Origin: a virus
IMG/VR virus record: IMGVR_UViG_3300029625_000019
Span: 1 to 27,801 of that record
Reading direction: 5' to 3' (one strand)
Length of the DNA stretch: 27,801 bases
Positions 11,253 through 27,801 of this stretch are shown piece after piece (the stretch's first letter is position 1; each line of letters opens with the position of its first letter). Below the pieces are notes generated by a model, which worked only from the letters and a program-made list of their open reading frames with translations, was not told the origin of the DNA and made no database searches. The translations under genes were made by a program, and so were the position numbers.

Positions 11253-12176
11253 TTAGGATAAAACGCTTGTAAATAAATATCCAGCATAAGGGTCAATAAT
11301 CTTGCAATCGTATTTGTCGCTTACTCTTAACCAATCGCTTCTTACTGCATCTTCTCTCCAGCGTTCAACTAACGGATAACCAGATTTTCTGAAAATATAG
11401 CCGAACGAAATCTGTTTTAAGCCCGGCGTTTTTGGAACGTAAAGTAATGCTGCCGTATCCGTCCAGATGTCAGACATACTCTGCGTTTTACCTTCCTGGG
11501 CTGCGTCGTAAGAGCTAACACCAACTAATAGATTTTCAACTTCAAAAACTTCTTTTAAAATGTCAACGCTTAATGTTCCGCCTCTGGTGTATTTGTAGTA
11601 TTCAAGTAATTTTGGATGCCTGCGAACAGTTAAATAAACGTCTTGCGGTAAAACTAACGTGTTAGGCAATTTCAAAACTGCTTTTCTTATTTTTTCTTTT
11701 GCTGTATCAATGTCTTTAAGTATATCGGCGTTCGGGTCATCCCATTTTGTTGTTGGTGAACCAGAATACCCTGAAGCATAATTTCCTGCCGTCTGCACTA
11801 TATTTGCAATTCTGCGTTCCAAATCTAATTTTAAAACATCAGTCGCAAATTCTGTGCTATCAGCATCGTATTTGATCGGGTCGTCGGCATTTTCCCTGAC
11901 TTCATCAATTAACTGCACTTCCGCCGCCCTTTCAGAAACAGAATAAGTCGGCGTGGAATCAATGTTCCATTCAACTTGCTTCGCCCTTGTCCCAGGTGCT
12001 CTATCAAGCGAATAAGATTTTAAACTTTGTTTCCCATAAACAAAATACTTATCGCTGTCCTTTTTTACGTTGATAACCGGAAATATTTTTTCTGCTATCA
12101 ACACATCGTTTTTATACGCAATTGAAACTTGCGTTAAAGCTGCATCTATATGAACATCTTTTGCAGTTGGTTGCAT
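11253..12176 (-). CDS. Major capsid protein
   Basis: This 307-residue protein follows the decoration protein gene. It has the character of the HK97-fold coat proteins of Mu-like and related phages. It opens with DVHIDAALTQVSIAYKND, has KIFPVINVKKDSDKYFVYGK and RAPGTRAKQVEWN, then a long helix DSTEFATDVLKLDLERRIA, and late TLVLPQDVYLTVRRHPKLLEY. The last motif, a 'peptide that locates a coat domain next to a fixed position', recurs in this coat family. Length is normal. Strong ribosome site GGAGGAA before ATG. It forms the icosahedral shell. Confidence 0.85.
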   Translation of the reverse strand: MQPTAKDVHIDAALTQVSIAYKNDVLIAEKIFPVINVKKDSDKYFVYGKQSLKSYSLDRAPGTRAKQVEWNIDSTPTYSVSERAAEVQLIDEVRENADDPIKYDADSTEFATDVLKLDLERRIANIVQTAGNYASGYSGSPTTKWDDPNADILKDIDTAKEKIRKAVLKLPNTLVLPQDVYLTVRRHPKLLEYYKYTRGGTLSVDILKEVFEVENLLVGVSSYDAAQEGKTQSMSDIWTDTAALLYVPKTPGLKQISFGYIFRKSGYPLVERWREDAVRSDWLRVSDKYDCKIIDPYAGYLFTSVLS

Positions 12177-17008: not shown

Positions 17009-18259
17009 TTAAAAGTCAATATTGTATTCTTTTTTTGCTTTTTCAATCTCTTCTTTTATTGCTATCAAACCTGATATATTTTTTTGTAAGCCAAATGCTT
17101 GTATTTGTTCAATGTTCGCTTTACACATTTCAATTGCGTTATCTAATGTATTACCAAACCCAAGCACAGAACAAACACTTGAAAAACCGGGCACTGCATA
17201 AAATTGATTATCGTATTTCATAACACGCCTAAATTTAATAAATTGCCTTAATTCTTGCGGGAACTGAATATTAAGCCAATGTTCATCCGCCCAATCACTA
17301 TCTAACGCAACTCCAACGCCGTATTGCCAGCGTGGTTTTAACTCAATCAAGTTTCCGTGTGCCGCTTCTTTTATCGCCTCGGCAAAATTGTCGTAAATTT
17401 CCATTTCAACAGCAGCCGGATTTGGAAGACCTGCCCTGATCGTCGCATCTATTAAATAACCCCTTTTATCTCGCTCATCAATTCTAACTTCAGTTGAAAA
17501 TAAAGTCCTTGCTTTTAACTTTTCAAAAAATATTGCCAATTTGTCATTTACCAAACGCACTTGTTCCGGAATGTTTTCATACTTCATAACTTTTGCAACA
17601 TAGCCGGCGCCCTTCATTTCATAAGCAAAAAGGCCGTAATTTGGATATCTACCGTCAACAATAAATAAGTCCGTCCCCGGTTCTATACCCGGTAAATAGT
17701 CCTCAACTATAAACTCAACTAATTCTTGCCTCAACCCAAGCACACTTGCGTAATAATCAAGTATTGTTTTGCTCGCTTCATAATTCTTACTGTAGTAACT
17801 TTCTAAGTCGCCTCTAAACATATTTATTTTAACAACAACGTCGTCATTGTTCTGTAAATATTGCCGTAAATTACTAACGCCTTTTATTTTAACTGTCCGC
17901 TGTGTCGGTAAACCAACTTTTTTTTGTAATTCTCTCCCAAACCATCTGTCATTTTCAAGCATCTCTGCATTTCCGCCACCAAATACATTATACCCTTTGC
18001 GTTTTAAATATTCCGCTATATCGCCAGTGTAAGTATCAAAAAAATATATTGCGTCAACTTCGTCAACGTATTCCCAAAACTCATTTATTCTTATAAGTCC
18101 TTCATCCTCAAACCCAGTTCCAATTAACGCCTTATCGGATTTTGGAAATGCATCTCGCCACTCGCAGTAATAATATACTTTGTTGTATACTTCGCATAAT
18201 TTTAATGACATCTCTACATTAAGACCAAAATCATAAACTAATGCTGTATTTTTTTTCAT
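17009..18259 (-). CDS. ATP-grasp enzyme resembling phosphoribosylamine-glycine ligase (PurD)
   Basis: This 416-residue protein has the full layout of a GAR synthetase-like ATP-grasp enzyme. An N-terminal alpha/beta domain ends in GYNVFGGGNAEMLENDRWFG (89-108). The ATP-grasp subdomains follow, with VVVKINMFRG (141-150, K144), VEFIVEDYLPGIEPGTD (181-197) and the strand YLIDATIRAGLPNP (268-281), where PurD has its metal ligands. A C-terminal part (VCSVLGFGNTLDNAIEMCKA) is also PurD-like. ATP-grasp enzymes join a carboxylate to an amine via acyl phosphate. Substrates are unknown. Its start overlaps the terminase stop (ATGA) and the portal follows, so it is made with packaging proteins rather than with nucleotide genes. 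Confidence 0.75.
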   Translation of the reverse strand: MKKNTALVYDFGLNVEMSLKLCEVYNKVYYYCEWRDAFPKSDKALIGTGFEDEGLIRINEFWEYVDEVDAIYFFDTYTGDIAEYLKRKGYNVFGGGNAEMLENDRWFGRELQKKVGLPTQRTVKIKGVSNLRQYLQNNDDVVVKINMFRGDLESYYSKNYEASKTILDYYASVLGLRQELVEFIVEDYLPGIEPGTDLFIVDGRYPNYGLFAYEMKGAGYVAKVMKYENIPEQVRLVNDKLAIFFEKLKARTLFSTEVRIDERDKRGYLIDATIRAGLPNPAAVEMEIYDNFAEAIKEAAHGNLIELKPRWQYGVGVALDSDWADEHWLNIQFPQELRQFIKFRRVMKYDNQFYAVPGFSSVCSVLGFGNTLDNAIEMCKANIEQIQAFGLQKNISGLIAIKEEIEKAKKEYNIDF

Positions 18260-20181: not shown

Positions 20182-21123
20182 GGGTTTTTTCATAATATCA
20201 GTAAAAATTTTTTTTGCTTCTTTTTCAAACCTCTTTTTTTCTTCAATTGCATATTCTTTAAGTTTTCTTTGCTTTACAAGAAAATCTTTATAAAACTTCG
20301 CTTTTGCTTTTGCTTTCAAATCCTTTATGCTATCAATCCAAAAATCATCGTCAATTTTTACCCCGTATTTTTCAAACGTATTTTTACAATTTATATCATA
20401 AAACATAACTATATCATAAGATAATGCCTCATAAAATCTGTTAGCAGGAAAGTTATAATTTGTATGTGTAACTTTATCTTCAATGTAAAAAGTAAAATAA
20501 AAGTTTTTTAATATGCAACGTTCGCTCCCAATATTTTTAATTTGCTTTAAAAAACTAACATTTACACCAATTTTTTTAAATTTTGGTATGTTCTTTACAC
20601 TTGTTGACAAAAATATATCTTTATCAATTAAATACTTTTTAAAATAATCAATACGTCCACGTCTAAAAGTTCCCCAATAAATTGGGTTTTCATACTTTTT
20701 CTCTTTTGAAAAGTCCTTTTTCAAATCAAACATCGTCAAACAATTAACATTTAACATAATTCTTTGTCTAAAATTCTTGTTGTTAACAATTTCTCTTTCA
20801 TAATTTGTTATTAGATAGTCAACAGGTCTTTTTTCAAATATTTTTCTTAATGAGCCATTTTCGGACAAATTATATTCATTAAAAAATCTTATTATTATTG
20901 CTTCCGGATGATTTTCTATAAACTTACATTTTTCCGTTATATTATCTATAAGTTGAAATGCATAAGGTATTAAAATAAAATCTATTTTTTTATTATTAAA
21001 ATAATTTAATTGTTGTATTGAACAAATATCAATAAAATTAAAATTTAATTTTAAATAATCTAAAAAACGTAAATATGCTGGTATTCCTTTACTATATCGT
21101 AAATTTAATATTATATTATACAT
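20161..21123 (-). CDS. Putative GT-B fold glycosyltransferase
   Basis: This is a 320-residue protein. The N-terminal half looks like a Rossmann-type unit (FILIPYAFQLI, YLITNYEREIVNN). The C-terminal half holds the strand-loop PIYWGTFRRGRID near 148-160 and NFPANRFYEALSYDIVMFYD (223-242), which resembles the nucleotide-sugar site of GT-B enzymes (N/P-x-RFYEA). The last 50 residues are a lysine-rich helix. The gene is visibly more AT-rich than the head genes. It overlaps the ParB-like gene by eight bases. DNA glycosylation is possible from this pairing but not shown; host surface glycan modification is the main alternative. Confidence 0.5.
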   Translation of the reverse strand: MYNIILNLRYSKGIPAYLRFLDYLKLNFNFIDICSIQQLNYFNNKKIDFILIPYAFQLIDNITEKCKFIENHPEAIIIRFFNEYNLSENGSLRKIFEKRPVDYLITNYEREIVNNKNFRQRIMLNVNCLTMFDLKKDFSKEKKYENPIYWGTFRRGRIDYFKKYLIDKDIFLSTSVKNIPKFKKIGVNVSFLKQIKNIGSERCILKNFYFTFYIEDKVTHTNYNFPANRFYEALSYDIVMFYDINCKNTFEKYGVKIDDDFWIDSIKDLKAKAKAKFYKDFLVKQRKLKEYAIEEKKRFEKEAKKIFTDIMKKPLTNINL

Positions 21124-21697
21124 TTTTTTTATCCTCCTGTAATTTTAAAAATTCTTTTGCTTTAATACTCGGCTTTTTTATGCCTAAAATCTGCATTACT
21201 TTATTTTTTTCTGTCTCGGAAAAACATTTAATAACAACTGAATATTGATTTCGTAATTTCTCTTCATCAATAAAAAAATCATCTATATCATCATAAGTAA
21301 TATTACTTATTTCTTTATCTGAAAACCCCACATTTTTTAATAATTCCTCGTCAAAATTCGCCAATAAGTCATAGTCCCACTCGCCTAAATTTTTATTTAG
21401 TCGTAAATTTAATTCCTGCTCCTTTTTAATATCGCTTATTGTTATATATACAATCGGAACTTGTTTTATGCCGAGTTTTTTTGCAATGTAATATCTCTGG
21501 TGGCCACCGATTATTATATTCTCTCGCCCCTTTGCATTATTAACAATAATCGGGTCTACAAGCCCAAATTCTTTTATACTGTTCGTCAAGTCTTTTGCCT
21601 CTGCATCTGTTAGTTTCCTCGGGTTATACTCCGCCGGCTTTAATTCGTTTATTGATACATACTCAACTTTTATTTTGCCTTCGTTTAGTTTTTCCAT
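21116..21697 (-). CDS. ParB/Srx-like N-terminal domain protein
   Basis: This is a 193-residue protein. Residues about 8-100 form a ParB N-terminal fold: YVSINELKPAEYNPRKL, DLTNSIKEFGLVDPIIVN, and IIIGGHQRYYIAKKLG with the GxHRxx-type motif (GGHQR). The segment LNKNLGEWDYDLLANF resembles the link found in phage ParB-methyltransferase fusions, but no methyltransferase follows. I chose the ATG at 21697, six bases after AGGTG, instead of the upstream GTG. ParB folds bind CTP or act as nucleases or base-modification partners; the role here is unknown. Confidence 0.8.
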   Translation of the reverse strand: MEKLNEGKIKVEYVSINELKPAEYNPRKLTDAEAKDLTNSIKEFGLVDPIIVNNAKGRENIIIGGHQRYYIAKKLGIKQVPIVYITISDIKKEQELNLRLNKNLGEWDYDLLANFDEELLKNVGFSDKEISNITYDDIDDFFIDEEKLRNQYSVVIKCFSETEKNKVMQILGIKKPSIKAKEFLKLQEDKKNV

Positions 21698-21709
21698 TTT
21701 TTTCACCTC

Positions 21710-26789: not shown

Positions 26790-26835
26790 AAAAAAAAACG
26801 CCGGAGCCAAGCGTGTTTTGCTTAGCCCCGGCGTT
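26790..26835 (-). terminator. Intrinsic terminator with GC-rich stem
   Basis: AACGCCGG, GC and AAGC (26797-26812) pair with GCTT, GC and CCGGCGTT (26820-26835), 14 base pairs and two mismatches, with a seven-base loop. On the minus strand a run of Ts follows (26798-26790). Second of two terminators behind the gene at 26900-27529. Confidence 0.9.
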
Positions 26836-26885
26836 TGCGCCAGCCCCAGTCCCTTATTCAGGGTTGGGTTAGCTTAACAATGGGG

Positions 26886-26911
26886 AAAAAAGCGTTACTT
26901 CATAGTAACGC
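26886..26911 (-). terminator. Intrinsic terminator overlapping the stop codon of the palindrome-rich gene
   Basis: GCGTTACT (26892-26899) and AGTAACGC (26904-26911) pair perfectly around TCAT. On the minus strand six Ts follow (26891-26886). The stop codon TGA (26902-26900) is within the hairpin loop. Confidence 0.8.
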
Positions 26912-27529
26912 CTCCTCCTCAGGGGTTAATACACTAACCCCTGATTTCTCCACATACACATTGTATGTGTCTGGGGCGCCGTAAAGGCGTCCTGATATTT
27001 TTATTTGAAATTTGGCTGGTGGTGTAATTTGAAATACAAAGTGTTCACCAGCGCCCATCGCCCCAGCCAAGCCCTGGGCGATGATTCCCCTCGCCAGCAT
27101 TTTGACATTTGCTGGCATGGGTAATAAATTATATTTTTCAGTATCTTGCATGTATAGTTTATCACTATACAGCAAGAAATATTTTTTTTCTTCATAATAT
27201 ATAAAATGATCATTTTTCCCCCTGTGACCAATAGGGGTTCTAACGACAAGGACTATTGCCTCGTCGTTGTCCCCTTCGGCAGGAGTTTCAAAAAATTTGG
27301 GGGCCCCTTTCAGGGTTGTCCCAAGTTTTACATTTTTTACAATGCGATCCCCTTCCCCATCCCAGGGGGTAATTAATTGGACGGGGATAATACCTAACTG
27401 GCGACCCCGCCCCTCTTCCCCAACCTGCACGGTGTCTATTACGACACCGTTTGATAATGTTTTCTTTTCTACTTTTGCCCCTTCGCTTACGCTAAGGGGT
27501 AATTTTTCCTCAATAGTATAAATTTTCAT
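26900..27529 (-). CDS. Palindrome-rich, GC-richer gene of unknown function
   Basis: A 209-residue protein I do not recognise. Its sequence is protein-like: charged N-terminus, beta-rich middle (EAIVLVVRTPIGHRGKNDHF), an amphipathic helix (MLARGIIAQGLAGAMGAG) and a final strand set with KFQIKISGRLYGAP and an acidic end. The start follows AGGAGGAAAA. Base composition is clearly higher in G+C than its neighbours (35 of 60 at 27361-27420, against about 12 of 60 in AT-rich genes near 24000). The coding DNA contains about 14 inverted repeats, listed in a separate feature. Transfer from another genome and selection on RNA structure are both possible. Confidence 0.7.
   Translation of the reverse strand: MKIYTIEEKLPLSVSEGAKVEKKTLSNGVVIDTVQVGEEGRGRQLGIIPVQLITPWDGEGDRIVKNVKLGTTLKGAPKFFETPAEGDNDEAIVLVVRTPIGHRGKNDHFIYYEEKKYFLLYSDKLYMQDTEKYNLLPMPANVKMLARGIIAQGLAGAMGAGEHFVFQITPPAKFQIKISGRLYGAPDTYNVYVEKSGVSVLTPEEEALL
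26919..27499. repeat. Series of palindromes throughout the coding gene at 26900-27529
   Basis: Perfect or near-perfect inverted repeats at 26919-26944 (10 bp), 26951-26969 (8), 27015-27052 (7), 27056-27083 (8), 27093-27116 (7), 27145-27176 (13 with one bulge), 27203-27216 (14-base palindrome), 27219-27237 (5), 27242-27268 (9 with one mismatch), 27300-27307 (GGGGCCCC), 27429-27450 (8) and 27478-27499 (8 with one mismatch). Together with those on both flanks this is about one palindrome per 45 bases. Some other genes in the window have a single one. Confidence 0.85.
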
Positions 27530-27562
27530 TTTTCCTCCTAAAAAATTTACCTGCGTATTTTA

Positions 27563-27651
27563 TCCCCCGCAGGCGGGGGAAGTTTTTGCCTGTCATTTGT
27601 TAACGGGGTTTCAGGCGTTTTCCCCGGGGCTTTTAAGGGTTGCCCACCCTT
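27563..27651. repeat. Hairpins in the leader of the palindrome-rich gene
   Basis: The gap 27530-27672 holds no gene. TCCCCCGC/GCGGGGGA (27563-27580, 8 bp, two-base loop), GCCTG/CAGGC (27588-27616), CCCCGGGG (27622-27629) and AAGGGT/ACCCTT (27635-27651) lie in a row. The minus strand enters it through AAAAAAAGGAGGTG (27666-27653), a Shine-Dalgarno-like sequence with no long ORF behind it. Confidence 0.75.
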
Positions 27652-27672
27652 CGCACCTCCTTTTTTTATTTT

Positions 27673-27801
27673 TTAATATAAATCATTTTCAATTAGTTTT
27701 TTTGGAATATATATGCTAACATTTTTAAAATCATAATTTTCAGTCATATTCATTTCATCAAACGATACAACGCACTCGCCAAATTTTTTACTAAATCTTT
27801 C
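27673..27801 (-). CDS. C-terminal part of a gene cut by the right window edge
   Basis: The minus strand is open from 27801 to a TAA at 27675-27673, giving 42 residues (ERFSKKFGECVVSFDEMN and then NYDFKNVSIYIPKKLIENDL). The composition is protein-like and AT-rich as in the rest of the phage. The start lies outside, so no product can be named. Confidence 0.55.
   Translation of the reverse strand, partial: ERFSKKFGECVVSFDEMNMTENYDFKNVSIYIPKKLIENDLY

Follow-up and report, generated by a model that had tools for sequence, protein, structure and literature searches.

Locus organization

The window analysed here, a 27.8-kb IMG/VR virus record, carries tailed-phage genes, among them genes for a portal protein (match to phrog_113), a ParB-like protein and replication proteins; the search for tRNA genes found none. 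Its right end is occupied by a block rich in hairpins, in which a leader, a single gene (gene A) and a Rho-independent terminator follow the end of an upstream gene on the minus strand (Table 1). The open frame of gene A, described as intact by an earlier reading made from the sequence only, is so at its full length, with a ribosome-binding site 5 bases before its ATG. The same reading had called the block GC-richer than the phage, which agrees with a GC content of 41-44% against about 32%; gene A is the most GC-rich gene in the window.

Several other genes of the window were compared with a second genome, G002. The gene for a 416-aa protein (17009-18259) has its orthologue at L008:7987-10317 of G002, where an in-frame intein of about 360 residues follows residue 276 (LAGLIDADG_3, E 4e-6, and a weak Intein_splicing match). 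A ParB-like protein fused to an N6/N4 DNA methylase domain is encoded at L008:4148-5272; its counterpart at 21116-21706 of the window consists of the ParB part alone, and the 320-aa ORF that comes after it looks unrelated. One frame of 745 aa in the window, the portal-head fusion gene, is found as two frames in G002 (L008:10333-12558), due to a frameshift or an assembly error. We take the IMG data of J. G. Elkins, including metagenome 3300009503, to come from hot-spring samples. This metagenome is the source of G002, and a published listing names J. G. Elkins as the owner of the data (PMC9599585).

Table 1. Features of the hairpin block and its flanks (positions in the window)
Feature	Position	Strand	Description
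Upstream gene, 3' end	27673..27801	-	42 codons visible, truncated by the end of the window; stop codon 27673-27675
Leader	27541..27672 (~140 bases)	-	several hairpins, from the stop of the upstream gene to gene A
Leader palindrome TCCCCCGC-AG-GCGGGGGA (plus strand)	27563..27580		arms identical in 4 of 4 leader copies, spacer CT or AG
Ribosome-binding site of gene A, AGGAGG	27535..27540	-	5 bases before the ATG; from sequence
Gene A	26900..27529	-	209 codons, intact ORF; coding sequence forms successive local hairpins (codon-shuffle z)
Hairpin TTACCCCTTAGC/GCGAAGGGGCAA	27475..27502		close to the gene A start; loop GTAA in the mRNA
Hairpin ACGGTGTC/GACACCGT	27429..27450		perfect 8-bp stem
Hairpin	27242..27268		10-bp stem including one G-U pair
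Hairpin	27145..27176		14 pairs with a single bulge; the stretch is inserted relative to cyanophage homologues
Hairpin GCCAGCA/TGCTGGC	27093..27116		
Hairpin CATCGCCC/GGGCGATG	27056..27083		inside the conserved IAQGxAGxMG stretch of protein A
Hairpin CACATACA/TGTATGTG	26951..26969		perfect 8-bp stem
Hairpin TCAGGGGTTA/TAACCCCTGA	26919..26944		perfect 10-bp stem
Hairpin GCGTTACT/AGTAACGC	26892..26911		stop codon of gene A within and beside the loop
Rho-independent terminator	26796..26836	-	strong, 17-pair stem and T-run, ends the unit

Hairpins of the block

The sequence-only reading had claimed at least 18 inverted repeats, and a symmetric stem search over 880 bases returned 18 stems, of which about a dozen are strong and a few are weak runs of A/T. 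The examples that it had singled out at 26919-26944, 27429-27450 and 27563-27580 were recovered with the stem lengths given for them (10, 8 and 8 bp, the last with a 2-base spacer). The hairpin at 27145-27176 is also present, but the 13-bp stem ascribed to it consists of 8 perfect pairs (27151-27171), or of 14 reached via one bulge, and not of 13 contiguous ones; likewise, the GCCAGC/GCTGGC cores said to recur in the arms do occur, but in few arms only. Another stem lies in the stretch of gene A that codes for SGRLYGAP.

The view that this is not one element copied many times was borne out: arm sequences are not shared, and the direct repeats are merely A/T-rich or 8-10 bases long. An inserted palindromic repeat element was rejected as the source of the hairpins, because the arms are not repeated and, of all the hairpins, only 27145-27176 lies in sequence that the homologues lack. 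The description of the block as built almost entirely of palindromes proved slightly too strong, with about 52% of bases paired in the local fold against about 50% in codon shuffles. The paired fraction of gene A is ordinary; it is the strength, length and perfection of the stems that are exceptional.

Folding excess of gene A

When gene A was compared with shuffles keeping the protein and the codon counts, its folding energy in segments of 120 bases gave z -7.15, with 0 of 100 shuffles as extreme; the remaining 26 tested genes of the window ranged from +1.5 to -3.5 (mean -0.5), and the genes of a close relative described below were similar. Codon-shuffle z of gene A was about -7 to -10 across the tests: it was -6.95 when dinucleotides were preserved as well, and -6.5 to -10.7 for pairing spans of 20-600 bases, with or without G-U pairs and on either strand. 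Against dinucleotide shuffles, the whole block scored z -13.1 (minus strand) and -10.5 (plus strand). Gene A holds 5 perfect hairpins whose arms are at least 8 bp long, whereas 300 codon shuffles had a mean of 0.17 and a maximum of 3. The predicted folding is still present at 70-80 °C.

The sequence-only reading had itself named equally palindromic synonymous shuffles as a reason to give it up, and the excess is absent from shuffles of the same composition. A non-random origin of the hairpin structure of gene A is near certain.

Protein A and its homologues

Homologues of protein A were found in the Pseudanabaena phages Pam2 (Pam2_165) and PA-SR01 (QIW88589) and in one IMG/VR contig. The similarity to Pam2_165 and QIW88589 is full-length, with 41-42% identity and more than 70 invariant columns, and the IMG/VR contig is likewise at about 42% identity; gene A therefore encodes a real protein. 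Family searches matched it to no family, and AlphaFold2 models had mean pLDDT values of 34 and 37, too low for a fold search. Further relatives of gene A, gene B (see below) and the leader were sought in IMG/VR and GTDB contigs, which yielded one further homologue of gene A and no leader-bearing phage besides the close relative; no close orthologue of either gene that would serve a covariation test was found. There was also a weak match to a Thermus plasmid (E 8e-3).

Many stems lie over residues invariant in the family, for instance at IAQGxAGxM, whose codons let CATCGCCC pair with GGGCGATG; codon choice thus built most of the structure. At invariant residues 19.5% of bases lie in perfect arms (4.4% in shuffles), and at variable ones 23.5% (5.8% in shuffles); both are covered alike, and the protein constraint was therefore respected. 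Pairing seemed higher at invariant residues, but this preference shrinks against the shuffles, in which it is also seen (0.60 in gene A, 0.54 in shuffles).

The folding excess of the homologues is small (z -0.8 to -2.2). Homologues that keep the protein and lose the pairing had been named beforehand as evidence against the hairpin reading, and this family does keep the protein without the pairing; on the other side, an unrelated gene behind the same leader has hairpins of its own (see below). The structure belongs to the locus, not to the protein family.

Genes neighbouring the homologue show a mild excess of hairpins in PA-SR01 (L033:44200-50000, mean z -2.47 vs 0.0, p 2e-6) and in Pam2 (L032:34700-43000, -1.14 vs -0.06, p 4e-4), p values that are optimistic since the zones were picked after the first values had been seen. 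Both zones also hold perfect hairpins between genes.

Leader copies and gene B in a related phage

A close relative, IMGVR_UViG_3300032356_000008 (G001), is 31.9 kb long with overlapping ends. The overlap, of about 150 bases, is between L006:1-150 and L007:11798-11948; G001 therefore probably represents a complete genome of about 31.8 kb, either circular or circularly permuted. Gene A was not found in it. The leader, however, occurs there three times with 85-95% identity, ahead of three different genes, and two search patterns did not find it in other IMG/VR contigs. In the resulting four copies from the window and G001, the arms of the GC palindrome are constant and its CT/AG spacer varies. 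The best conserved part of all copies is 27563-27593, where on the plus strand the GC palindrome is followed by AGTTTTTGCC, a terminator-like site for antisense transcription. The consensus fold of the leader has compensatory changes in 0 of 15 pairs and gave no support to one that an alignment read by eye had seemed to show in the first leader hairpin.

Behind the longest leader copy of G001 lies gene B (L006:193-741, 182 aa), for which no homologues outside G001 were found in phage and IMG/VR searches, and whose protein has no similarity to protein A. Gene B was first noticed by eye as hairpin-rich while the surroundings of the leader were being read, and was scored afterwards: z was -8.4 and -7.8 with codon shuffles and -6.4 with dinucleotides kept. 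That an unrelated gene behind the same leader has the same construction suggests that the folding itself was selected. The leader alone does not impose folding, because the G001 genes behind the other two copies (L007:11147-11551 and 11656-11901) do not exceed the background in sense-strand folding. Just upstream of the G001 leader, a short gene (L006:919-1212) has z -4.8 to -6.1 and contains the perfect palindrome GTTAAATACTCATGAGTATTTAAC.

Gene B also bears on composition. A gene of high GC might, in an AT-rich phage, be hairpin-rich trivially or by chance, and gene A does top the genes of the window in GC. However, the shuffles keep protein, codon counts and GC, and in some tests dinucleotides too, and gene B shows the same excess at 35.5% GC, the ordinary value of the phage. 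The shuffle tests refute this explanation, and the probability that we leave to it is negligible.

Another possibility is that the transcript acts in addition as a structured functional RNA (a decoy, a binding scaffold or a packaged RNA) and that the protein is its second use. The folding of leader, gene and 3' end as one hairpin chain, to which the whole-block value above refers, would fit such an RNA. Nevertheless, the Rfam search gave 0 matches at the gathering threshold and only sub-threshold matches at a relaxed E-value (best E 0.07), genes A and B have no stem sequence or arrangement in common, and the protein is conserved elsewhere without the structure. We consider a functional RNA of this kind improbable.

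RNA, DNA or mutation

The sequence-only reading had proposed that the mRNA folds into a hairpin string. The computations support such folding; DNA-level or mutational causes of the same hairpins are possible. Under this alternative, hairpins or cruciforms would be selected in the DNA for protein binding, recombination or replication, or template-switching mutation would perfect near-palindromes that the protein tolerates. Several features are as this would have it. First, the arms are mostly perfect Watson-Crick duplexes, and with G-U pairs left out z of gene A is at least as strong. Second, both strands of genes A and B fold with equal excess; however, MS2 is certainly RNA and yet almost equally strand-symmetric, so symmetry does not decide between RNA and DNA. 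The comparison by Watson-Crick-only folding is uninformative for the same reason, MS2 giving a similar result. Third, the leader and the 3' flank are affected as the gene is. Finally, the arms of the leader palindrome are kept while the spacer changes between CT and AG, as inversion at the palindrome would do. The perfect pairing, the strand symmetry and the spacer swap are thus also compatible with selection on the DNA or with a mutational process that makes palindromes.

G-U pairs make up 4.7% of the confident pairs of gene A in sense and antisense alike, 9.5% (sense) and 4.9% (antisense) in gene B, and 7-10% in MS2; the low share in gene A is as expected of DNA palindromes or of a recent origin. 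A G..A first mismatch in the loop stabilises RNA hairpins, and such loops stand at 8:3, sense to antisense, in gene A and at 1:0 in gene B. At 60 °C the start-codon windows of both genes are among the 4% least paired; at 37 °C this is true of gene B only, the start of gene A not being spared. The asymmetries in loops, G-U pairs and start codons point to sense RNA as weak, partly post hoc hints. The codon register of the stems shows no clear preference.

Against a DNA-level origin stand the loop and start-codon asymmetries, which lean toward sense RNA, and the position of the stems on family-invariant residues, most of which are unchanged although blind mutation should break conserved residues; moreover, the locus has no link to a recombinase or to a repeat family. 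Overall, we regard selection or mutation at the DNA level as a somewhat unlikely explanation. If a mutational process did act, it would be a palindrome-making hotspot limited to one locus.

The start-codon data bear equally on the idea that the folded mRNA regulates or paces translation, slowing ribosomes or delaying the product until it is needed, and does not protect RNA. The stems span the whole coding sequence, one having the stop codon at its loop, the leader hairpins lie 5' of the ribosome site, and the genes headed by the leader are accessory genes, all of which would suit pacing. On the other hand, the mRNA has a strong ribosome site and, at 60 °C, an open start window, ribosomes unwind stems of 8-10 bp, and family searches recognised no toxin-like or regulatory family. 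Translational pacing is, in our estimate, unlikely.

Proposed role of the hairpin chain

The reading that we favour, tentatively, is selection on the folding of the transcript that runs from leader through gene to terminator, which would most likely limit the single-stranded RNA exposed to nucleases or to an RNA-targeting defence. Gene A would be an ordinary translated phage gene in a cassette position headed by the leader, whose codons were chosen, and in which some amino acids and one insertion were tolerated, so that stems run along the gene. The selected molecule would be the transcript, leader through terminator, and the selected form presumably its RNA and not the DNA. The chain of hairpins would avoid long single-stranded stretches and may in this way resist an RNA-targeting defence or nucleases; the ribosome site would still be usable. 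Protection from RNA decay or RNA-targeting immunity would amount to a counter-defence written in codon choice.

A more specific version assumes that some dsDNA phages have a cassette locus with a shared hairpin leader, where genes are recoded by codon choice into hairpin chains that shield the transcript from host RNA decay or RNA-targeting defence. It appears rather doubtful to us; if true, it would describe a protein-free shield transferable to unrelated genes. With two unrelated genes behind one leader, the question of why a transcript or a DNA stretch needs hairpins becomes testable.

Comparison with known systems

Rickettsia palindromic elements are palindromic repeats inserted in genes. 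Like them, gene A has palindromes within an open frame, and one of its hairpins lies in an insertion; unlike them, its arms differ, there is no repeat family, and most stems lie on residues shared with the homologues. GOLLD and ROOL are large structured phage RNAs, with which the gene A block shares hundreds of bases of stably folded sequence in phage DNA; it differs from them in having no Rfam match and in encoding a conserved protein with a ribosome site. In the part of the literature that we covered, we found no dsDNA phage described as having a single gene built as a hairpin chain.

Of 695 DNA-phage gene segments, gene A is the most extreme, at 6.5 SD from the remainder, and gene B the next, at 5.2 SD. 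The segments were taken from the window phage, G001, G002, lambda, T4, phiX174, Pam2, PA-SR01, Ma-LMM01, RM378, P23-45, GBK1 and three IMG/VR contigs by a mechanical ORF caller, and some of them are not genes. A survey of 650 dsDNA virus genomes, which used a measure of the same kind (folding energy against codon-shuffled genes), found structure reduced at start codons and interior windows of T7 not different from zero (PMC3072339). Gene A, by comparison, stands as far from other phage gene segments as given above.

The closest resemblance is to the genome-scale ordered RNA structure (GORS) of RNA viruses and to ssRNA phages such as MS2, where, as in gene A, the coding sequence folds far better than its synonymous shuffles. 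For pairs at most 60 bases apart, the excess is -10.3 kcal per 100 bases in gene A and -9.8 in gene B, against -7.8 to -10.9 in the MS2 replicase gene; an impression from short-range folding that gene A exceeds MS2 was dropped once longer pairs were allowed. The hairpin genes do not share the genome-wide spread of ordered structure in RNA viruses, because the excess is confined to single genes. The systems also differ in that GORS and MS2 concern RNA genomes, whereas here a dsDNA phage carries short local hairpins in single genes behind one leader, and single genes with a folding excess like that of RNA phages are not expected in dsDNA phages.
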